A stretch of DNA of 64,000 nucleotides, taken from assembly GCF_900116205.1 (NCBI RefSeq), contig NZ_FOZS01000001.1, forward strand, positions 558,001 through 622,000, given 5' to 3'. The position numbers were made by a program, and so were the translations under genes. Position 1 is the first letter of the stretch. Each line of letters starts with the position of its first letter. Below are positions 1-9,215 of the stretch, piece after piece. The notes beneath the pieces were generated by a model that was not told where the DNA came from, made no database searches, and worked only from the letters and a program-made list of their open reading frames with translations. Source of the DNA: Halostagnicola kamekurae (lineage in GTDB: Archaea > Halobacteriota > Halobacteria > Halobacteriales > Natrialbaceae).

Positions 1-35
1 CCATCCGTATACCTGTGGCCCAAACGGCAGTCCGG

Positions 36-95
36 GCACCGCGTTCTGTCCCACCGCGTTCAGCCCCGACGCGTTCTGGCCCACCGCGTTCGAGC
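36..95. repeat. Four 15-bp tandem repeats upstream of pdhA
   Basis: Four consecutive 15-bp units (36-50, 51-65, 66-80, 81-95) share the core aCGCGTTC at the same place in each unit. They end about 40 bp before the TATA-like box of the E1 alpha gene. The exact 15-bp periodicity is seen directly; a role as regulator-binding sites is inference. Confidence 0.7.
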
Positions 96-137
96 GAACG
101 TGTTCGAGACGGCGACGGTCACGCTCGCGCACTCGAT

Positions 138-145
138 TTTAAGGT
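138..145 (+). promoter_or_regulatory. TATA-like box of the E1 alpha gene
   Basis: The AT-rich stretch ATTTTAAG stands alone in GC-rich DNA, centred about 32 nt before the ATG at 173. This fits a very short leader, the usual haloarchaeal arrangement. Confidence 0.5.
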
Positions 146-172
146 GATCGGCTCCCTCCGTGGGAGTATCCG

Positions 173-1327
173 ATGTCACGCGACGTACTCGACCGGGCAC
201 CCGACGATCGCGTGCAGATCCTCGACCCGATGGGCGAGGTCGTCGCCCCCGACCTCCTGCCGGACCTCGAGGAGTCGACGCTGCACGCGATGTACCGGGA
301 TATGAAGTTCTGCCGGCGGTTCGACGAGCGGATGATCAGCCTCCAGCGCCAGGGCCGACTCGGGACCTATGCCTCGCTCGCGGGCCAGGAGGGCTCCCAG
401 ATCGGGTCGACCTACGCGCTCTCCGACGAGGATATGCTCTCCTTTCAGTACCGCGAGCACGGGGCGGTCGTCTCGAGAGACCTCCCCTGGGAGTACCTGC
501 TGTACTGGATGGGCCACGAGGACGGCAACGCCGCGCTGGCGGACGTGAACGTCTTCCCGCTGAACATCTCGATCGCCGGGCACATCCCCCACGCGGTCGG
601 CTGGTCGTGGGCGGCCAAACTCCGGGGCGACGAGCGCGTCGGCGTCGTCCACTTCGGCGACGGTTCGACGAGCGAGGGCGACTTCCACGAGGCGATGAAC
701 TTCGCGGGGGTCTTCGACACCCCGACGGTCTTCCTGTGTCACAACAACCAGTGGGCGATTTCGGTGCCCCGCGAGCGACAGACTGCGAGCACGACCATTG
801 CCCAGAAAGCCGACGCCTACGGGTTCACGGGCGTGCAGATCGACGGGATGGACCCCCTCGCGACCTACGTCGTGACGAAGGCCGCTCGAGAGAAGGCCCT
901 CGACTCGCCCGACGAAGCGTCCGGGGACGGCGACGCCGCAGATTCGGCGGCGAGCGATCGCTTGCGACCCACGCTCATCGAGGCGGTCCAGTACCGCTTC
1001 GGCGCACACACCACCGCGGACGACCCGAGCGTCTACCGAGACGACGAGGAGGTCAAGGAGTGGCGCGAGCGCGACCCCATCGACCGGTTCGAACTCTATC
1101 TCCGGAATCGGGGACTCATCGACAACGGCCACATCGAAGCCGTCGAGTCGGAGGTCGAAGAGACCCTCGAGGACCTGCTCGAGCGGACCTCGGAGTACGA
1201 ACCCGATCCGCGGGAGATGTTCGAGTACACCTATGCGGAGCCGACGGAACGACTCGAGGACCAACGGGCCCACCTCGAGTCGCTGCGCTCGACCCACGGC
1301 GACGACACGTTACTCGAGGACGAGTAG
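173..1327 (+). CDS. pdhA: Pyruvate/2-oxoacid dehydrogenase E1 component, alpha subunit
   Basis: This is the thiamine-diphosphate-binding alpha subunit of a 2-oxoacid dehydrogenase E1, which decarboxylates pyruvate or a branched-chain 2-oxoacid and reductively acylates the lipoyl domain of E2. At 384 residues it is normal for the family. The ThDP motif runs from GDGS (162-165) to NN (191-192), and the GQEG segment near residue 82 is typical. An acidic low-complexity insert lies around 244-262. The ATG at 173 follows a promoter-like box closely, so the transcript is probably leaderless. The next gene is convergent and no E1 beta, E2 or E3 follows, so this copy looks solitary. Substrate identity cannot be settled from sequence. 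Confidence 0.92.
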   Translation: MSRDVLDRAPDDRVQILDPMGEVVAPDLLPDLEESTLHAMYRDMKFCRRFDERMISLQRQGRLGTYASLAGQEGSQIGSTYALSDEDMLSFQYREHGAVVSRDLPWEYLLYWMGHEDGNAALADVNVFPLNISIAGHIPHAVGWSWAAKLRGDERVGVVHFGDGSTSEGDFHEAMNFAGVFDTPTVFLCHNNQWAISVPRERQTASTTIAQKADAYGFTGVQIDGMDPLATYVVTKAAREKALDSPDEASGDGDAADSAASDRLRPTLIEAVQYRFGAHTTADDPSVYRDDEEVKEWRERDPIDRFELYLRNRGLIDNGHIEAVESEVEETLEDLLERTSEYEPDPREMFEYTYAEPTERLEDQRAHLESLRSTHGDDTLLEDE

Positions 1328-1338
1328 GGATCGGCGGT

Positions 1339-1773
1339 TTACTTCTGGCTCTCGGTTCGGTCGGGGTCGCTGTCGCGCTCGCTCCAGCGCTGGTAGGCGA
1401 CCGGATCGGGGCCGCGGACGGTCGTGACGCCACCGCCGCGATCGATCAGCATCGGCACGTCGGTATCGGGGCAGTTGCTCGAGGGAGGAGTGCCCTCGCT
1501 CGAGGAGCGCTCGTCCGGTGGCTCGGGGCTCTCCGATTCCGGGTCGCAGAGGAGTCGCTTTGCCCACCGGGCTTCCGCCCGGATCTCGCGGACGTGTCGT
1601 CTCACCGCGCGGGCGCGCTCACCCTCGAGGCTCGCGAGCAGGCGTTCGGCCTGCGCATCGATTCGCTCGAGGCGGTCGCGGGTGGTCGATGAAGTGCCTC
1701 GAGTGTCCGCAATTTCGTTCGGTGCGTTCGGTCTGTCGGGGCTTTCAAGTCCCGATGAGTCGTCGTCGTACAT
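1339..1773 (-). CDS. Hypothetical protein with charged helical core
   Basis: I do not recognise this 144-residue protein. Residues 30-75 are rich in Arg, Glu and Ala (segments such as RLERIDAQAERLLASLEGE) and should form an amphipathic or coiled-coil helix. Both ends are disordered, Ser/Pro/Asp-rich sequence. There is no membrane segment or signal peptide. It converges on the E1 alpha gene with 11 bp between stop codons. Composition fits a haloarchaeal orphan; whether it is translated is moderately certain. Confidence 0.55.
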   Translation of the reverse strand: MYDDDSSGLESPDRPNAPNEIADTRGTSSTTRDRLERIDAQAERLLASLEGERARAVRRHVREIRAEARWAKRLLCDPESESPEPPDERSSSEGTPPSSNCPDTDVPMLIDRGGGVTTVRGPDPVAYQRWSERDSDPDRTESQK

Positions 1774-1908
1774 GGCTTCCGTAGTGTGGATACGGGAGCT
1801 ACCACGGATCGGTGGCCAAACACCGATCCACTTCTCGAGCGATTATCTCGGCTCGAGTCCAAACTGTAGCTTCCGCATCACTATCTCCGTGCTATCTCAC
1901 TTAATATC

Positions 1909-1922
1909 TTTGCATATGCAAA
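1909..1922. promoter_or_regulatory. Perfect 14-bp palindrome, candidate operator
   Basis: TTTGCATATGCAAA reads the same on both strands and abuts an AT-rich box (AATATTTAG, from 1921). It lies about 105 bp before the start of the phiH1-repressor-like gene. It could be an autoregulatory operator; this is inference from position and symmetry. Confidence 0.45.
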
Positions 1923-2027
1923 TATTTAGATTCGCAAATGATTGTCTAAAAACTTCTAGATGCGCATATACGTGTGTTTTCGTTCGCATGAGAGGGTTCT
2001 ATTGCCGAGTAGCACGCGAACCGTGGT

Positions 2028-2288
2028 ATGCGCGAACGCGCTGACTGGATGGTTCCAACCGACGACGCTATCTTGGAATACGTGCGCGATGCGGGCGAGG
2101 TCCCACCGGCGGTTATTGGCCGCAACATCGAATCGCATCCGAACTACGCCGGACAACGGTGTCGGCTGCTCGCCGAGCACGGGTTGCTCGATCGTGAAAG
2201 CGACGGCTATTACTCACTTACCCCGTTGGGGCGTCGATATCTGGATGAAGAACTCGAGTCGGGAGCGTTGGATACTGACGGCGCGTAA
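2028..2288 (+). CDS. PhiH1 repressor-like winged helix DNA-binding protein
   Basis: This 86-residue protein has the layout of the small winged helix repressors related to the halovirus phiH1 repressor. The N-terminal half begins MRERADWMVPTDDAILEYV; helices follow around 10-50 including the turn region VIGRNIESHP; a beta-wing ends with SDGYYSLTPLGRRYLDEEL, the usual end of the fold. It probably binds DNA as a dimer and regulates transcription. The region upstream is AT-rich and carries a perfect 14-bp palindrome that may be its own operator. It sits at the left edge of a lower-GC islet with toxin-antitoxin-like genes, but chromosomal homologues are common, so a viral origin is not implied. 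Confidence 0.85.
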   Translation: MRERADWMVPTDDAILEYVRDAGEVPPAVIGRNIESHPNYAGQRCRLLAEHGLLDRESDGYYSLTPLGRRYLDEELESGALDTDGA

Positions 2289-2377
2289 CTGACGAGTCGC
2301 TCTCGTCCCACGTCGTCCGGGGGCGCAAGTCAACAGAACAACTATATTCGTGGGGGTCCCCAATTTCGTGTACGACC

Positions 2378-3343
2378 ATGCTCACTCTAAGCGACGAAGA
2401 CGACCTCCTCGAGGACATCATGGAGGGAGTTGAGATCGCTTTAGCTCGGACCGGGTTCGATGGGGAACACGTCGACCCGATCACGGTTAACAAATTGGCA
2501 TACCTCGCTATTCAGGAGTTCGAACCGCCGATAACCTACGGCTGGTACAAGTACGGCCCCGCACCGGTAAACGTCGCACGTCGGACTGTCGACCTGACGC
2601 CGCGACCGCTGGCGGAGGTTCCTGCTGCAGATGAACCGCGTGTTCGGGACCCAACGGGGAAGATACTCAGTCCCAGAGAGTACTCGCACTTCTTTAGCTC
2701 CGATCTCGAGGAATTCCAGCATATCCTTGAAACACCGACCAAAGAGTACCTGGTCGAGTTCTACTTCGATCACGCACCGGACGAGTATCGCGATCTCTAC
2801 ATCGCGAGTGCGGAACTCCAACAGGTCCTCGACGAAATCAAAACGCCGGCGTGGCACGCTGACGCTACCGGGTGTCGCACTCGACTCGAGCGGCGGTTCC
2901 CGCGGCTCGTGACTGAGGTTCACTCACACGACATCCTCAGTGAGTCCGTCTCAGCGGTAGACGCTTACGAACGAGTCGTGACGAGGATCGTTGCGACTGC
3001 GAGCGAGCAGGGCGAACTCTCGGAGTCACAGCAGCGTTTTATCAATCGGGCCGTCGACCACTTCTACAGCACCGTCTGGAAATATGTCGCACTTCTCGTC
3101 TCTCGAGACACTGTCGATCGCTCTCCCGGAACGAACCAGCGGGCGCTTCGGAACAACATCGAGAGCGATCTTCGAACGATTAGAGACGAGTGGGAGGTCG
3201 AACTCGAACGACTCGAGGAGCTGGCGACTGGATTCGACCTCTACTCGGAGTTGGGGGCGACTGCGCAGAGTGTCGACCATTACGACGGAGATGACGAATC
3301 CGGAACGGCGTCGGTAGACGAGATGTTGGAACTTATCGAGTGA
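2378..3343 (+). CDS. Panacea (DUF4065)-like protein, candidate antitoxin
   Basis: This 321-residue protein carries near residues 34-62 the segments TVNKLAYLA and YGWYKYGPAP, which resemble the K-L-x-Y-L-A and W-x-x-G-P-V signatures of the Panacea domain, best known from the SocA and PanA antitoxins. The rest is helical and rich in Glu and Ser, with a long C-terminal extension (about 180-321). There is no signal or membrane segment. The stop is only 9 bp before the next ATG, so the two genes are almost surely co-transcribed. A TATA-like box (ACTATATT, about 2340-2347) precedes it. GC is lower than in flanking housekeeping genes. Family membership rests on short motifs, so it is tentative; gene reality is secure. 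Confidence 0.8.
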   Translation: MLTLSDEDDLLEDIMEGVEIALARTGFDGEHVDPITVNKLAYLAIQEFEPPITYGWYKYGPAPVNVARRTVDLTPRPLAEVPAADEPRVRDPTGKILSPREYSHFFSSDLEEFQHILETPTKEYLVEFYFDHAPDEYRDLYIASAELQQVLDEIKTPAWHADATGCRTRLERRFPRLVTEVHSHDILSESVSAVDAYERVVTRIVATASEQGELSESQQRFINRAVDHFYSTVWKYVALLVSRDTVDRSPGTNQRALRNNIESDLRTIRDEWEVELERLEELATGFDLYSELGATAQSVDHYDGDDESGTASVDEMLELIE

Positions 3344-3352
3344 GTAGCCACG

Positions 3353-3802
3353 ATGCGTACTCATACACTGGATTCGGACACAACTGTCGCTATTTTTGAC
3401 GCGACCGCTGCCAAATCGCTCTTCGATGATCTCGGGAAGAAAACCACCCTACAGCGACAGTTTCTCACCCGTCTCCAGAACGCACTCGAGAGCCAGACCC
3501 CTCATACGTACGTCGAGAAACCGTTTCGCGGCGTCGACAACGTCGATCAGTTTCGGGCCGGAGACATCATGCGGGGTTACTGCGTGTTCGCCGATGAACC
3601 ACCCGCGTACAACATCTTTTATTTTCTGCAGATAACGGACCACGAGTACGACGCCTATCCGGTCGCGAAGTACGACCGCAAAGCGGGTGCAATCATCGAG
3701 ACACTGCAGTCGCTCTCGAGCGAGGTCGCCGTCGAACAGTATCTCGAGGAACATGACGCCCTCCGGGTCGACGATGTCGAACGGTTGCGATCCAAATTAT
3801 AG
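3353..3802 (+). CDS. RelE/ParE-like protein, candidate toxin
   Basis: This 149-residue protein is encoded 9 bp after the Panacea-like gene. The central part (residues 60-105) has the pattern FRAGDIMRGYCVF, then YNIFYFLQITDHEYD and a charged Lys/Asp segment. This looks like the K/R-x-R-x-G-x-x-R...hydrophobic strand order of RelE/ParE-fold toxins, where the strand before a charged helix carries catalytic or binding residues. The protein is longer than classic RelE (about 90 residues) because of an N-terminal helical part and a C-terminal helix. The order, larger antitoxin-like gene first, and the tight spacing fit a type II toxin-antitoxin operon. Similarity is by pattern only; no toxicity is shown. 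Confidence 0.78.
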   Translation: MRTHTLDSDTTVAIFDATAAKSLFDDLGKKTTLQRQFLTRLQNALESQTPHTYVEKPFRGVDNVDQFRAGDIMRGYCVFADEPPAYNIFYFLQITDHEYDAYPVAKYDRKAGAIIETLQSLSSEVAVEQYLEEHDALRVDDVERLRSKL

Positions 3803-3822
3803 TGTGGCGCTCACGGCAGTTC

Positions 3823-4170
3823 CTACTCCGAAACCGCTGCCTCCACGATTTCGATTTCCTCCTCGTCAATCCGTACAGTTCGTAGACGATTTCGTCGATC
3901 AACGTCCGTCTTCTCGATTTTCTCCTCGAGTTCCTCCGCCCATGCTTTCGTCTCGAAATAACTCTCTAACCCGTCTCGCACGTCGTCAACGGCGAGGGTG
4001 AGCTTCCACAGACGGTCGACGGGCTAGTTGGTCTTGGTGGCGGTCTCGCGGAAGTTGGCGAAGCCGCCAGCCTCGTCGACGGCGACGGGGACGAACGCCT
4101 CGATCAGGTCGGCTTCGGTTTCGGTGAGGTCGGAGATCTCGAGAGCCGGCAGGAACTCAGTTTCGGTGTG
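3823..4170 (-). pseudogene. C-terminal remnant resembling a type IIG restriction-modification enzyme
   Basis: On the minus strand one frame reads HTETEFLPALEISDL, continues to an in-frame TAG (4024-4026), then KLTLAVDDVRDGLESYFETK. After one frameshift it reads IDEIVYELYGLT, and after a second it reads EEEIEIVEAAVSE and a stop at 3823. The phrase IDEIVYELYGLTxEE is characteristic of the C-terminus of Eco57I-like (type IIG) and BREX-type methylase-restriction proteins. One stop and two frameshifts within about 350 bp, and no upstream catalytic part, show a dead fragment. It converges on the toxin-like gene, so the islet has carried defence genes. Confidence 0.65.
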
Positions 4171-4213
4171 CCATGGAGACGGTTGTGAGCACAAAACGTA
4201 TTAGGTGTAAGAT

Positions 4214-4429
4214 GTGAACAGAGTAGTAATATCAATGCTCAACTGGTTACGATCCCGCCCCTTTGCACAACAACTACTAATTCTCGCGGTGATCTGTGAT
4301 CCGATCGGATTCGCCGCGGGGTATCTCCTGGCACCGTCACTCGGCCTCGACCCTTTTATGGGAGGCGTGTACGGACTCGTCGCGGCGAGCCTCCCGGTTT
4401 CGTTCTGGGTTCTCACCCAGAATAACTGA
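4214..4429 (+). CDS. Small two-helix membrane protein
   Basis: This encodes up to 71 residues from a GTG at 4214, or 64 from an in-frame ATG at 4235, which I prefer because a basic N-terminus (LNWLRSRPF) then leads straight into the first membrane helix. Two hydrophobic segments follow: about LLILAVICDPIGFAAGYLLA and GGVYGLVAASLPVSFWVL. No family was recognised. It follows the restriction-modification remnant in lower-GC DNA and may be part of the same accessory islet. Confidence 0.5.
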   Translation: MNRVVISMLNWLRSRPFAQQLLILAVICDPIGFAAGYLLAPSLGLDPFMGGVYGLVAASLPVSFWVLTQNN

Positions 4430-4639
4430 CGCGATCAGTCACTCAGGACGCGGCAAGCGATGGCTTCGAGAAGCCACACGGCGTGCTCGAGAGCGATGTT
4501 CACTGGCGAGCGACGCATCGAACATCTATTGGTGTTCGGTGCGTTCTAGTTCTACAATATTTCACGATATCAATCAGGTTTGGCGCGTTTCCGACAGTTT
4601 TAGACCAGTGGGTGCGAGTCCGATACGTAGAGAGATTTG

Positions 4640-4897
4640 ATGTACTCCAACGAACTGACGGAGTCAAAGTGTATCTGGGACCTCCTCGATGCAGTTGCGG
4701 ACCTGAAGGGCGTCGAACCACATCGCCTGCCGCCGATTTACCATACGATCGATCCCGAGCCGGTTGCGGCGCTGATAAACGGCTCCGGCGCTCATTTCGA
4801 GTTGACCTTCGAGTACGAGGGATTGCAGATCCTGGTGACTCGAGACCGGTACCGGATCAGCGCCGACGGCGAAATCGCAGTCGACGCGAACTGGTAA
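4640..4897 (+). CDS. HalOD1 output-domain protein
   Basis: This 85-residue protein matches the haloarchaeal HalOD1 domain: AVADLKGVEPHRLPPIYHTI, then DPEPVAALI and a beta-rich end FEYEGLQILVTRDRYRIS. HalOD1 domains occur alone or at the ends of haloarchaeal signalling proteins and are thought to be sensory or regulatory output modules; the mechanism is not established. I chose the ATG at 4640 over an adjacent TTG at 4637. A DUF7344 regulator lies convergently downstream, a frequent haloarchaeal neighbour. Confidence 0.85.
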   Translation: MYSNELTESKCIWDLLDAVADLKGVEPHRLPPIYHTIDPEPVAALINGSGAHFELTFEYEGLQILVTRDRYRISADGEIAVDANW

Positions 4898-4960
4898 CGC
4901 CGGTTCGTATCAGACACTGTGCGTCTCTGAGATGGCTGTGGGTCGCCATCTGGTCTTGTT

Positions 4961-5287
4961 TTACTGAGAGCGATACGTTTCTGCGATCGCTTCGAGGTCG
5001 TCGACTTCTGCCGGAACGGTCACCTCACCCGATTCGCGCGCGTACGAGATCAGTCCCGAATCGGCCAGTTTCGGCAGGTGGACGTGATACAGTGCGACTC
5101 GAGCGGAACGGACTTGCGCGTCGGTCGGCTCCCCGCTTGCACCGTCCGGTGATCGAGCGGCGATTCGAGACGCCAGTTCGGAAACGTCGAGCGGTTGCTC
5201 TTCGGCCAGAATCGAGAGTGTCTGTCGGCGATACCTGTTCGCAACGTCGGTAAACGACGGCATCGTCGACGGAGTTCGTGAATTCAT
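4961..5287 (-). CDS. DUF7344 winged helix regulator
   Basis: This 108-residue protein has the layout of the haloarchaeal DUF7344 domain: an N-terminal helix with YRRQTLSILAEEQPLDVSEL, a recognition-helix region ending ALYHVHLPKLADSGLISY, and a short beta-wing. It is a likely dimeric DNA-binding regulator. An internal ATG nine codons in (MPSFTDVANRYRR) could be the true start. It lies between a HalOD1 protein and a bacterio-opsin-activator type regulator, so 4.6-6.1 kb is a regulator cluster. Its targets are unknown. Confidence 0.85.
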   Translation of the reverse strand: MNSRTPSTMPSFTDVANRYRRQTLSILAEEQPLDVSELASRIAARSPDGASGEPTDAQVRSARVALYHVHLPKLADSGLISYARESGEVTVPAEVDDLEAIAETYRSQ

Positions 5288-5390
5288 AGGTATTCAGTAG
5301 CAGATCTGGCTAGGCGACTCCGATGGAGAAGGGGCAGGCCTGTACTATCAACCCCTTATTTAGGGGGGCGTATCCGTGGTCCTGCGATAG

Positions 5391-6059
5391 TCACGTCGGC
5401 TGACTCGGCTCGCTGGCGCTCACGATGAGCGTGTTCGCGATCAGCGACCGGTGTGCGCGATGGAGCCGCTTCGAGAGCGACTGTTGTGTGATGTCGAGTT
5501 CGGCCGCAACGTCCTCGAGCGACGCCTCTCGAGGGGTTTCGAAGTAGCCGGCTTCCCAGGCCGCGACCAGCGCCGACTGCTGTTTCGACGTGAGTCCGTA
5601 CTGGCCGCCCGTTTTCGGCTGGGAGAGATCGTACAATCGTCGAAGGTCGAACGCGATGTTGCGTTCGTGACAGTAGCGCTGAAACGTATCCAGTTCGTCG
5701 CGGTCGTCGAACCTGATGCGCAGTTCCCAGCGCTCGTTTGAGCCGGTCGCCTCGAGGACGACGGCTTCGATTTCGGTGTAGATGTAGACGATCGATTCGA
5801 CGTGGCGGGTCCACTCCGCGCGGTAGAGTGCGGTCTCCTGAAATTCGTCGAGTTGCTCGAGGTTGCGTATCGACGGATCCTTCGCGACCGCGTCCTCGAA
5901 CGTGCCGAAGTTGACCTCCGAGACCCAGAAGTAGGGAGTGAGCACCTCCTCGGTCGCGACGACTCGTTCGATTTCGATTACCATCTCCGAAACCGCGTTC
6001 AGGGTTTCGTGCAGCGCGAACGCGTTCGAGGGGACGTGAAACTCCCCGAAGACACTCAT
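5391..6059 (-). CDS. Bacterio-opsin activator-type HTH regulator
   Basis: The C-terminal 60 residues are a haloarchaeal HTH_10 (Bat-type) domain: YGLTSKQQSALVAAWEAGYF, then TPREASLEDVAAELDITQQS and LSKRLHRAHRSLI. The first 150 residues are a mixed alpha/beta regulatory domain of the kind found in these single-domain Bat-like regulators. I chose the ATG giving MSVFGEFHVPSNAF because this N-terminus is usual for the family; the frame stays open to 6338, but the extra sequence is basic, low-complexity and unlike the family. It is probably a transcription activator; its target is not visible here. Confidence 0.88.
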   Translation of the reverse strand: MSVFGEFHVPSNAFALHETLNAVSEMVIEIERVVATEEVLTPYFWVSEVNFGTFEDAVAKDPSIRNLEQLDEFQETALYRAEWTRHVESIVYIYTEIEAVVLEATGSNERWELRIRFDDRDELDTFQRYCHERNIAFDLRRLYDLSQPKTGGQYGLTSKQQSALVAAWEAGYFETPREASLEDVAAELDITQQSLSKRLHRAHRSLIANTLIVSASEPSQPT

Positions 6060-6207
6060 ACGCTCGATTCGAAGTACCCGAATATAAGCACCAAGATGTA
6101 TAGTCCCCCGTTCGGTCGTCTGATACGGGTAAAACTCCCGATTTGTATATCTCGCCAATATGTTCGCGCGGCCCCGATCGCGGGCCGGTGGCCGTTCGAC
6201 TCGCTGC

Positions 6208-7608
6208 TCAGTCGTCGGTGGCCGGGCTGGTAACGGTCTGTGCCTCGTCGTCGGCCGCGTCGTCATCGTCGTCGATTCGCGGGAAGTTTTCGATGGTGTC
6301 CTCGCGAAGGGCGGCTTCGTCGAACTCGTACTCGCCATCGAGGAACTCGAGCACCCGCTCGGTGTCCTGCAGGGCGTTTTTCAGGCACGTCGACGCGCCG
6401 GGCGAGGGCGTGATGTTGAAGATGATGTCGTCGCCGACGATCTTCGCCTCGCCCATGTCCAGAGACTTGTTTTTCGTATCGACGATCTGCGGTCGAACGC
6501 CGCCGTAGCCTTTCGCGCGTTCGATGTCTTCGAGTTCGGCGCTGGGGACGACCTTCTGGACGTGCGGGAGGAACTGGCGTCGTCCGACCTCGGGGAGGTC
6601 GTAGACGAGGTTCCGGAGCACGTACGGCAGGAGGACCCGATCGGAGAGGATGTTGGCGTAGCTGAGAAACGCCGCCGCGTTCAGCCCGAACACGTCGAGG
6701 AAGTCTTTCACCGTCGAGATTCGGCCCCGCTCGAGCGTCGGCACGAGTTTCGCGGTCGGACCGAATCGGGTGATCGAGTCGTCGTGGACGTCCGCGTCCC
6801 CGTGGACCGCGGCGAAGGGCAACTTCTTCATCTGGAGGGTGTAGACCTTCCCGTTCAGGAAGTCGTCCGCGAGGAAGAAACTACCCGCGATGGGAAGCAA
6901 CACCTTGTCCTGTCCGTAGCCCAGTTCCTTGGCTATCTGGAGGCTGTGGGAGCCGGCGGCGACGACGGTCGCTTCGCAGTCGAACCGACCGTTCGTCGTC
7001 CCGATGGTGTAGCCGTCTAAGGTCTCCGTGATGTCTTCAACTTCCGTTCCGGTGTAGACGTCGACGTTCGCCTCCTGTTCGGCCTGTTCGACGAACGACT
7101 TCGTCGTCTCGCCGTAGTCGACGACGTAGCCGTCGGGCGTCTGGAGCGCGAGCATCTCCGTCGAGGGGTCGCGTCCCTCGACGACCTTCGGTTCGATCTC
7201 TGCGATCTCCTCGCGATCGATCGCCCGAAGTTTCGGGAAGAGGTCGCCGAATCCCTCGTCCTCGTAGCGTTCCTCGAGTTGTGCGACCTCCTCGTCCCCG
7301 ACGCCGAGGACCATCTTGGACCGCTTCGAGTGCATCTCGCGGTCGGGGTCGTGATTCTCGAGGTAGCCGGCGAGCAGTTCCGCACCTTCCTTTACGTCTT
7401 CGGCCTTCTCGAGCGTGTAGTTCGTCTCTATGTCGCCGAAGTGCAGCGTCTGGGAGTTGTTCGTGACGTCCGAGTTGATCGCGGCGAGTTCCGACTCTTT
7501 CTCGATCAGCGCGATGGACTCGATATCAGTGAACTTCGCAGTCGTGTACAGCAGGGATGCACCGCTGATACCGCCACCCACGATGACGAGGTCGTATTTG
7601 CCAGACAT
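6208..7608 (-). CDS. mqo: FAD-dependent malate:quinone oxidoreductase-like protein
   Basis: This 466-residue flavoprotein starts MSGKYDLVIVGGGISGAS, the dinucleotide-binding motif of the DAO/Mqo family, and has the malate:quinone oxidoreductase features NSQTLHFGDIETNY near residue 50 and SPGASTCLKNALQDTE near the C-terminus. Mqo oxidises malate to oxaloacetate and passes electrons to the quinone pool at the membrane. The C-terminus is an acidic tail (PRIDDDDDAADDE). The frame is open another 57 bases upstream, but the ATG at 7608 puts the FAD motif at the very N-terminus, as expected. A related 2-hydroxyacid oxidase activity cannot be excluded. Confidence 0.85.
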   Translation of the reverse strand: MSGKYDLVIVGGGISGASLLYTTAKFTDIESIALIEKESELAAINSDVTNNSQTLHFGDIETNYTLEKAEDVKEGAELLAGYLENHDPDREMHSKRSKMVLGVGDEEVAQLEERYEDEGFGDLFPKLRAIDREEIAEIEPKVVEGRDPSTEMLALQTPDGYVVDYGETTKSFVEQAEQEANVDVYTGTEVEDITETLDGYTIGTTNGRFDCEATVVAAGSHSLQIAKELGYGQDKVLLPIAGSFFLADDFLNGKVYTLQMKKLPFAAVHGDADVHDDSITRFGPTAKLVPTLERGRISTVKDFLDVFGLNAAAFLSYANILSDRVLLPYVLRNLVYDLPEVGRRQFLPHVQKVVPSAELEDIERAKGYGGVRPQIVDTKNKSLDMGEAKIVGDDIIFNITPSPGASTCLKNALQDTERVLEFLDGEYEFDEAALREDTIENFPRIDDDDDAADDEAQTVTSPATDD

Positions 7609-7943
7609 GATTTTGGTCGCTACTTTCGTGAGTGCACTCCACACGGATAACTCATATTCTTTCAACCGACATTACGTCGATCGACGAAATGAGAATCGAC
7701 GAAGTGGGCGTTCGCGCCGAAATCGCGACGCTTCGTCGTCTCTCGAACGCAATCGTCCGGCAATCGTGTCGGTTGAAACGGCGTCGGCGCGGCTGCTCGA
7801 GTGTAGCGAATCCACTCACCGGCGGATCGTGAAGCCTGAACGAACTGGCCAGCGTGAGCCGGAAATCGAAAAAATTCTCGGCCCGGTTCGGTCGAATACC
7901 GCTCGAGGAGTGTGATCGGCTTCGTGTGCGGCCGGAATCCGTC
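7609..7943. other. Intergenic stretch, no convincing gene
   Basis: This is 335 bp between the Mqo-like gene and the TM2 protein gene. A plus-strand frame from an ATG at 7689 could encode 47 Arg-rich residues with no promoter-like box or recognisable motif; I do not consider it a gene. Promoter elements of the leftward Mqo-like gene should lie in the first 60 bp. Confidence 0.6.
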
Positions 7944-8378
7944 TCAGAACTCGCCGAAGATGCTCCCGTCGGCGTATTTCTCCTCGTACTCCGCTTCGTC
8001 CGCGACGAGCATCAGGATCCCTTCGACCAGTCCGAGCAGAGCGGGAATTCCCGTCCAGAAGAAACACAGATACAGGACGCCGTACTTGATGTTCCCCTGG
8101 TAGAACTTGTGTGCCCCGACGAAGCCGACGACGATCGCCAACACGCCGGCGACGACCTGATCGGAGCTGGTTTCACCGGACGACTGCTGTCTGACACCAC
8201 ATTCCGGACAGATCTCCGCGTCTTCTTTTATCAACTCGCCGCACTCGGTGCAGTATTTCTCGTCTGCGGCTCGCTCTCCGCCGTCAGTCACGAGCGGCGT
8301 CTCCTGGCTCGCACCGCAGTTCGGACAGCGCGCCGTGTTCCCCTCGATATGGTCCCCACAGTTGGTACAGTCGGTCAT
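7944..8378 (-). CDS. Double zinc-ribbon, TM2-domain membrane protein
   Basis: The 144-residue protein has two CxxC...CxxC zinc ribbons: CTNCG...CPNCG at residues 4-24 and CTECG...CPECG at about 43-62. A TM2 domain follows with two membrane helices and the family signature VGAHKFYQGNIKYGVLYL. TM2 proteins are small membrane proteins of uncertain function; zinc ribbons in front of TM2 are common in archaea. A TATA-like box and an 18-bp inverted repeat lie just upstream (8408-8441). Confidence 0.9.
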   Translation of the reverse strand: MTDCTNCGDHIEGNTARCPNCGASQETPLVTDGGERAADEKYCTECGELIKEDAEICPECGVRQQSSGETSSDQVVAGVLAIVVGFVGAHKFYQGNIKYGVLYLCFFWTGIPALLGLVEGILMLVADEAEYEEKYADGSIFGEF

Positions 8379-8423
8379 CAGTGTTCTGACGAAAATTCAC
8401 ACACCCCTCATAAAATAGCATCT

Positions 8424-8441
8424 ATATGATCTCAATCATAT
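8424..8441. promoter_or_regulatory. Inverted repeat upstream of the TM2 gene promoter
   Basis: ATATGAT and ATCATAT form perfect 7-bp arms around CTCA. The repeat lies directly upstream of the TATA-like box (about 8408-8416, minus strand), which is itself about 34 nt before the start codon of the TM2 gene. It is a candidate regulator site. Confidence 0.4.
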
Positions 8442-8467
8442 CAATAAGACATACATTATTCGACTGC

Positions 8468-8926
8468 CTAATTATCAGTGAGGGAAATAGAAAGCAGTAC
8501 TCCGGCGGCGACGCCGTACCCGATTCCAACGGCGATAACCCGAAGGTCGCCGGCGAGGAGCAGGCCGAGGAGACCGCTTCCGTACCCGATTCCGAGCAGG
8601 AATCCCGTCGCCGTTCGAACCGGGTTGTATCCCCGTCGGTCGGTGAACGTCGTGAGCGTCCAGTCGATCAGCGCGGGGAGCGGAAAGAGGAGGACGACCG
8701 GGAGACCGGTGAGCGACTGGCTCGCCACACCGCCCTCGAGCACGGAAGCCAAAACCGCCACGAGGATACCCGGATAAATCCCAAGACAGCGCGCGCAGAC
8801 GTGGATCTGTCGACCGAAGACGACCGGCGCGTAACACCGGTGGCGCTCGGACGGCAGGTGATGTGAGAGCAGATACGGCCACGTCCGTGCCAACCCGGTC
8901 CGTAGCTCCGATCGGTCGATCCCCAT
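8468..8926 (-). CDS. DUF2085 membrane protein
   Basis: This 152-residue protein has the DUF2085 layout: an N-terminal region with SHHLPSERHRCY, then HVCARCLGIYPG entering the first membrane helix, and three to four helices in all (for example VVLLFPLPALIDWTLTTF and VIAVGIGYGVAAGVLLSISL). The conserved Cys and His residues suggest metal or redox chemistry at the membrane surface, but no function is known for the family. It stands on the same strand as the TM2 gene, with about 90 bp of AT-rich DNA between them. Confidence 0.85.
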   Translation of the reverse strand: MGIDRSELRTGLARTWPYLLSHHLPSERHRCYAPVVFGRQIHVCARCLGIYPGILVAVLASVLEGGVASQSLTGLPVVLLFPLPALIDWTLTTFTDRRGYNPVRTATGFLLGIGYGSGLLGLLLAGDLRVIAVGIGYGVAAGVLLSISLTDN

Positions 8927-9101
8927 ACCCTCTTTCGGTTGCCGTGGCGACTAAAACGTACGTCTCTCTCGAGGTCTTTTCTGACAGTCGAGGGCCGAGT
9001 CAATTCCGTGTGAGGTTGTGGACCGAGAGAACCACACCGGACGCGTCACCCGTCCGATCGTCGCGCGCTCGTTTCCGAACTCGAGAGACCGTCACCTTCC
9101 C

Positions 9102-9175
9102 AGCCAGAACGTATCAGTTCGGACCGAATGCAACTTATGGCCCTGATCGATGTAGGCCAGAGTTATGTTCTGGCT
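9102..9175. promoter_or_regulatory. Inverted repeats before the amidohydrolase gene
   Basis: AGCCAGAAC at 9102-9110 is repeated inverted as GTTCTGGCT at 9167-9175. The right arm is also half of a smaller hairpin, GCCAGA (9156-9161) with TCTGGC (9169-9174). The group ends 40 bp before the start codon at 9216. A regulatory role is inference. Confidence 0.35.
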
Positions 9176-9215
9176 TACGACACACAACGGCCGGGTGACC
9201 GGAGGGAGACCGTAG

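Follow-up and report, generated by a model that had tools for sequence, protein, structure and literature searches.

A haloarchaeal toxin-antitoxin-like gene pair and an archaeal family of antitoxin-like proteins with several toxin partners

Introduction

Do two adjacent genes in the genome of the salt-loving archaeon Halostagnicola kamekurae form a toxin-antitoxin system, and what kind of antitoxin would the first gene encode? The genes lie in the window, by which we mean the whole stretch of 64,000 nucleotides that was analysed. An earlier note on this DNA had proposed that a Panacea-like gene is followed here by a RelE-like gene.

A two-gene organisation with the antitoxin first is typical of toxin-antitoxin pairs, and the promiscuous antitoxins known so far are mainly those with Panacea and HTH domains. 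Panacea antitoxins (PanA, PF13274/DUF4065) are promiscuous, and in some of them the C-terminus holds a neutralising element that can be exchanged, for example Phd-C (PMC8832971; PMC10440598). Where this element is separate, a sensor role has been proposed for Panacea (PMC10440598).

Results

Two genes in an accessory islet

Both open reading frames are where the earlier note had placed them, on the plus strand and separated by 9 bp:

2378..3343, plus strand: gene 1, ATG start, an antitoxin-like protein of 321 aa from an archaeal family without annotation
3353..3802, plus strand: gene 2, ATG start, a 149-aa RelE/ParE-like putative toxin
2343..2348, plus strand: TATA-box-like TATATT about 30 bp 5' of the gene 1 start, proposed from sequence inspection
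1505..4234, no strand: accessory islet holding the gene pair, from blastn against L269; a genome of the same genus has about 62 bp in its place

Both proteins show the motifs quoted in that note: gene 1 has 'VNKLAYLA...TYGWYKYGPAPV' at residues 37-64, and gene 2 contains 'QFRAGDIMRGYCVFADEPPAYNIFYFLQI'. The lower-GC islet is equally real. The GC content of the stretch with the gene pair is 0.53-0.59 versus 0.66-0.68 directly upstream, and the islet is absent from a genome of the same genus (G018), where window positions 1-1504 and 4235-4434 are separated by 62 bp (blastn). Another genome (G019) aligns with 4416-9201 of the window at 90% identity and with no part of 1330-4415.

Upstream of gene 1 lies an 86-aa winged-helix-like ORF (2028-2288). 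Similar small winged-helix ORFs also precede the canonical Panacea loci L157 and L160; no winged-helix ORF common to the gene 1 loci was seen. On the minus strand 3' of gene 2, two short ORFs without a family match occupy 3823-4194. The earlier note took this stretch for a dead restriction-modification fragment, a label that found no footing, the pieces having no match in Pfam or NCBIfam. Ordinary haloarchaeal regulators adjoin the islet, a HalOD1 protein (4637-4897) and a DUF7344 protein (4961-5287).

Gene 2 resembles RelE-superfamily toxins

Gene 2 has no match in Pfam, NCBIfam or PADLOC, and PF05016 does not match it directly either. Three of its homologues had no Pfam match save one that was weak and irrelevant. 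Neither gene 1 nor gene 2 returned an informative family from PHROGs or a relevant sequence from the PDB. At the level of profiles, the proposed RelE likeness holds. The gene 2 profile (25 distinct members) matches haloarchaeal members of PF05016 (ParE_toxin) over 74 columns (hhalign 87%, P 3.8e-6), while control comparisons with PIN, MazF, Panacea and gene 1 profiles gave P >= 0.09. The core of the likeness is as follows:

3542..3658, plus strand: RelE-like core of gene 2, residues 64-102, from the family alignment

R74, H97 and Y99 are invariant in the gene 2 family, which fits RelE/YoeB-type catalysis. Because the R and H/Y of this type lie at family-invariant positions, gene 2, a putative toxin of the RelE superfamily, is most likely an mRNA interferase. 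Its 'FRAGDxMRGY...H-x-Y' resembles the 'LRAGDYRAII...GHRRxVY' of haloarchaeal ParE/RelE proteins. However, gene 2 departs from RelE/ParE in several respects: it has 149 aa compared to 85-95 aa in these relatives, it has no direct Pfam match, it shows a single H where they have HR, and its partner is gene 1 instead of a RelB-size antitoxin.

Gene 1 seems to stand in for the usual antitoxin

Homologues that occur singly had been named by the earlier note as evidence against a gene pair. This is partly what we find. Most gene 2 homologues do lie apart from gene 1, but another small antitoxin-like ORF then takes the place of gene 1. It is mostly a conserved ORF of 45-50 aa, 11-56 bp upstream, with the typical ending '..VLRGIEDIAEGNTASKEDLESVLKY' or '..PEGVLRGIEDIAEGNTASKEDLESVLKY', and it is likely a mini-antitoxin. 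Because a small antitoxin-like ORF fills the place of gene 1 at solo gene 2 loci, the toxin-antitoxin reading is strengthened. The solo RelE-like genes (L020-L024, L067-L094) belong to the same toxin family as gene 2 (about 31-34% identity) and share its antitoxin-first order; they differ in having the mini-antitoxin where the window has gene 1. At the four gene 1-paired copies of gene 2, gene 1 stands in place of the 45-50-aa ORF. Among the loci fetched through gene 2, these were the only ones with a gene 1 relative.

Where MazF homologues lack gene 1 (L247-L267), a MazE-type antitoxin mostly lies upstream. Since solo RelE-like and MazF homologues mostly bear a mini-antitoxin and a MazE-type antitoxin, respectively, gene 1 appears to take the place of the cognate one.

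The mini-antitoxin ORF family of L020-L024 and L067-L094 is apparently unannotated; one example is the ORF before L024:1495-1935:-. The genome of the window has one mini-antitoxin/RelE-like pair of its own, on contig C5 at about 5849-6300.

A Panacea-like motif in gene 1

Pfam, NCBIfam and PADLOC contain no match to gene 1. The Panacea model PF13274 does not match gene 1 at E up to 10, does not match ten gene 1 relatives at E up to 1, and has no match in the window's own genome. The likeness to Panacea is confined to one motif:

2477..2569, plus strand: Panacea-like motif, gene 1 residues 34-64, from the alignment and from hhalign to haloarchaeal PF13274 members

K39, W56 and G60 are invariant in alignment A1 (17 relatives). 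Compared to 22 haloarchaeal Panacea proteins (A5), the A1 profile yields an hhalign P of 1e-4 and a profile of 75 members a P of 9e-5; unrelated profile pairs, our controls, gave P >= 0.07. The similarity is limited to 33-47 columns, the K-L-x-Y-L-A...W-x-x-G-P motif, and the invariant K and G of haloarchaeal Panacea align with K39 and G60 of the gene 1 family. A direct HMM search between gene 1 and Panacea gave weak matches, with those in forward orientation at the N-terminus ranking higher than most reversed controls; the best 40 comprised 28 forward matches near the N-terminus and 9 reversed controls.

The AlphaFold2 model of gene 1 has a mean pLDDT of 81 and a pTM of 0.77. Its N-terminus is modelled as helix-helix-hairpin, and two further parts matter below:

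2735..3232, plus strand: predicted long helical bundle, gene 1 residues about 120-285 (AlphaFold2)
3251..3340, plus strand: C-terminal tail of gene 1, residues 292-321, pLDDT < 50, probably disordered, a candidate for the part that neutralises the toxin, with the motif GTASVDEMLELIE

Foldseek found no match to this model at E <= 0.001 in the PDB or among viral models. Likenesses to CheA P1, talin and CCM3 (VIA-align Z about 10) were rejected as helical-bundle background. Structure prediction, which the earlier note had named as a check, thus gave a good model without a convincing fold match for gene 1, and for gene 2 a poor model with a pLDDT of 37, built from 3 sequences. The label Panacea-like survives as a remote likeness confined to one motif; PF13274 does not match, and among solved folds there was no convincing counterpart.

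Gene 1 relatives share with PanA the antitoxin-first two-gene operon with several unrelated toxin folds, and the K-L-x-[YF]-x-A...G-P core motif in register (a remote hhalign match). Unlike PanA, they are about 320-400 aa in length, contain a long helical bundle where Panacea has a compact domain of ~113 positions, and have no PF13274 match. PanA is known mainly from bacteria, whereas the gene 1 family was found here in the archaeal phylum searched and one archaeal virus only. Canonical Panacea proteins coexist with the gene 1 family in haloarchaea. On genomic grounds gene 1 would work like PanA; we do not claim membership of PF13274.

Several toxin folds follow gene 1 relatives

As partners we took the gene directly 3' of every distinct member of the gene 1 family, which gave 82 genes. 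A same-strand ORF begins at most 30 bp from the stop in 76 of the 79 full-length gene 1 relatives, with gaps of about -20 to +18 bp. The family thus shows the conserved two-gene operon, antitoxin-like gene first and with a short gap or overlap, that is expected of type II systems.

Most partners (72/82) fall into three homologous groups, with a few others besides. The groups are PemK/MazF (11), RelE-like (4) and PIN-like (57), all three of them unrelated types of RNA-cutting toxin. The PIN-like group was built by sequence linkage; its most divergent members are PIN-like by linkage only. Among the MazF partners, two are matched by PF02452 (E ~1e-18). The PF01850 model finds two PIN-like partners, below its cut-off, and a set of PIN-like partners aligns with PF01850 members (hhalign P 5e-5); D13, E50, D92, D160 and D183 (L012 numbering) are invariant in it. 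In Archaeoglobus-type genomes, the partner of the gene 1 relative is likewise PIN-like. The haloarchaeal MazEF/PemIK system has its counterpart in those gene 1 relatives that have MazF partners, two of which bear tails resembling a MazE-type tail; here the gene 1 family takes the place of the AbrB-like MazE. Hence the first gene is antitoxin-like and pairs with several toxin folds, as the earlier note had supposed.

RelE-like partners occur in the window, at L079 (G142) and at L080 and L105, both in G286, which corresponds to Halorutilus salinus (L170, L171). The pair of gene 1 and gene 2 is therefore present at four loci, which belong to three families (f1, f5, f11), in the same order and with a spacing of -4 to +9 bp. 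Could the two genes still be unrelated and adjacent by chance? That most gene 2 relatives are not beside gene 1 would agree with this. Yet both genes have homologues throughout the haloarchaea, and the same pair recurs at L079, L080 and L105 in two other families. We therefore reject chance adjacency as scarcely credible. A toxin-antitoxin-like two-gene unit that recurs and lies in an accessory islet is thus supported.

In a maximum-likelihood tree of 74 members, the four RelE-paired proteins lie on one side of a branch (87/41). Together with two MazF-paired groups they form a strongly supported clade (100/99), and all other partners are outside it. The tree needs four changes of partner label, compared to a mean of 16.3 for shuffled labels. 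As judged from the tree, toxin exchange happened in the gene 1 family, if rarely. Partner class is stable within clades and changes four times; therefore the exchanges are few and old.

Some divergent gene 1 relatives have partners outside the PIN, MazF and RelE groups (L126:3569-3997, L134:1812-2351, L138:3172-3675). These are possibly further toxin types; those at L126 and L138 have no Pfam assignment.

The core is kept and the tail is not

Compared to the RelE-paired L079, the gene 1 protein of the window is identical at 167/290 core positions and 9/31 tail positions. The corresponding counts are 163/289 and 12/31 for the RelE-paired L080, and 138/289 and 3/31 for the MazF-paired L002. In these alignments the core of gene 1 is kept across toxin classes and the 30-residue C-terminal tail is not.

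Does the tail resemble the antitoxin that usually accompanies the toxin? In a position-specific score for the mini-antitoxin tail, L080 comes first of all gene 1 tails (shuffle p 0.01), L079 second (0.07) and the window sixth (0.13), the last with a weak score of 0.70. The tail of the RelE-paired L105 does not score. By a MazE-tail score, the first two places of 81 go to the MazF-paired L174 (shuffle p 0.003) and L025 (0.009); the majority of the remaining MazF-paired tails gave no score. Because all these proteins are relatives of one another, the ranks are not independent and are not proof. A mini-antitoxin HMM failed to set the RelE-paired gene 1 proteins apart, which leaves the weaker position-specific score. 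It is therefore suggestive that the tail is toxin-specific and in some members resembles the tail of the cognate antitoxin.

Accessory or mobile distribution of gene 1 relatives

Gene 1 relatives occur in 15 of 125 genomes of the host's family. Queried with the alignment of 17 relatives, 70 of 391 sampled haloarchaeal genomes (18%) contain the family, and it is also found in other classes of the phylum (G423, G465, G480, G593, G625, G644). Eleven haloarchaeal plasmids bear a relative, and some plasmid copies adjoin DrmE-like, helicase or restriction-like genes. Archaeoglobus veneficus pleomorphic virus 1 bears one relative; scans of viral contigs found none. Hence, with an empty site in the same genus, a presence in 18% of sampled haloarchaeal genomes, and copies on plasmids and in a virus, the distribution is accessory or mobile.

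Discussion

We consider it reasonably probable that the locus is a type II toxin-antitoxin module in which a RelE-superfamily toxin is blocked, through a tail, by a Panacea-like antitoxin that swaps toxins. In this antitoxin-first operon, gene 1 would keep gene 2 inactive, and its short, flexible C-terminal tail probably binds and blocks the toxin. The conserved core, that is, the Panacea-like N-terminal motif and the long helical bundle, would be a platform or sensor. The core would free the toxin in response to a cue, for example when a virus infects the cell or the element is lost. Loss or inactivation of gene 1 would free gene 2 in the same way, and freed gene 2 probably cuts mRNA. In evolution, the core has been joined to RelE-, MazF- and PIN-type toxins, and the tail would have diverged upon toxin exchange. 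The sequence analysis itself shows that the genes are paired, that partners are exchanged, that gene 1 stands in place of the usual antitoxins, that core and tail differ in conservation and that the location is accessory; toxicity, neutralisation and the roles of tail and sensor are inferred from this.

We hold one extension of this proposal tentatively, at a little short of an even chance in our judgement. Gene 1 may represent an archaeal family of promiscuous antitoxins with a constant, sensor-like core and an exchangeable tail that was taken from, or converges on, the toxin's usual antitoxin. Tails would then be matched to toxins, MazE-like for MazF and mini-antitoxin-like for RelE, and one scaffold would serve at least three toxin folds.

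The same module could work differently: the core, by its Panacea-like motif or helical bundle, might bind the toxin directly, and the tail would merely add degradability or specificity. A stand-alone Panacea neutralises directly in the PanAT of B. choladocola (PMC10440598), the core is long and confidently folded in the model, and most MazF-paired tails are unlike MazE. However, the core is alike across unrelated toxin folds while the tails differ, and the tails with the best matches look like the antitoxin that is cognate to their own toxin class. We thus regard direct binding by the core as rather unlikely.

Further removed is a module that is not of the addiction type at all, but serves RNase-based antiviral defence or RNA regulation, with gene 1 as activator or targeting subunit of different RNases. 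The mobile and plasmid location with one copy in a virus, the DrmE-like, helicase or restriction-like neighbours of some plasmid copies, and the sensor role proposed for Panacea (PMC10440598) would suit such a module. We nevertheless find it improbable: the partners come from classical toxin families, in which relatives are found paired with small antitoxin-like genes, and the antitoxin-first order of the two genes is that of toxin-antitoxin pairs. Such a module would also be compatible with the toxin-antitoxin explanation. Just as little credence goes to gene 2 as a ParE-like inhibitor of DNA gyrase instead of an mRNA interferase. The matched profile is indeed Pfam's ParE_toxin, yet the family-invariant R74, H97 and Y99 fit RelE/YoeB-type catalysis.

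How much of the preferred toxin-antitoxin reading is new? Panacea promiscuity and exchangeable neutralising elements are already known; the archaeal gene 1 family is apparently undescribed. The open-access literature that we searched contains no description of it. Kurata et al. searched with the DUF4065 model at gathering score (PMC8832971). Because the current DUF4065 model does not detect the gene 1 family, their survey would miss it.

If this reading is confirmed, archaea possess a promiscuous antitoxin scaffold of their own, for which dozens of toxin pairings exist in nature. Related proteins with different toxins, RelE and MazF within one clade, would then make the antitoxin's toxin switch testable. 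Functions would also be assigned to many 'hypothetical protein' pairs that haloarchaeal plasmids and an archaeal pleomorphic virus carry.

Further observations

In Archaeoglobus veneficus pleomorphic virus 1 (L027:12753-14166), the gene 1 relative is followed by a PIN-like gene of 144 aa. In its close relative L227 the gene at this position encodes 223 aa, so the copy in the virus may be truncated. Several other loci are decayed: at L125 the gene 1 relative is split, with a transposase-like ORF between the parts, L028 is frameshifted, and L009/L033 are truncated. At L101 it is the MazF partner that is cut short. Finally, two adjacent small ORFs of 91 and 109 aa upstream of the second pair of Halorutilus salinus (L171:2201-2808) look like another toxin-antitoxin-like pair.
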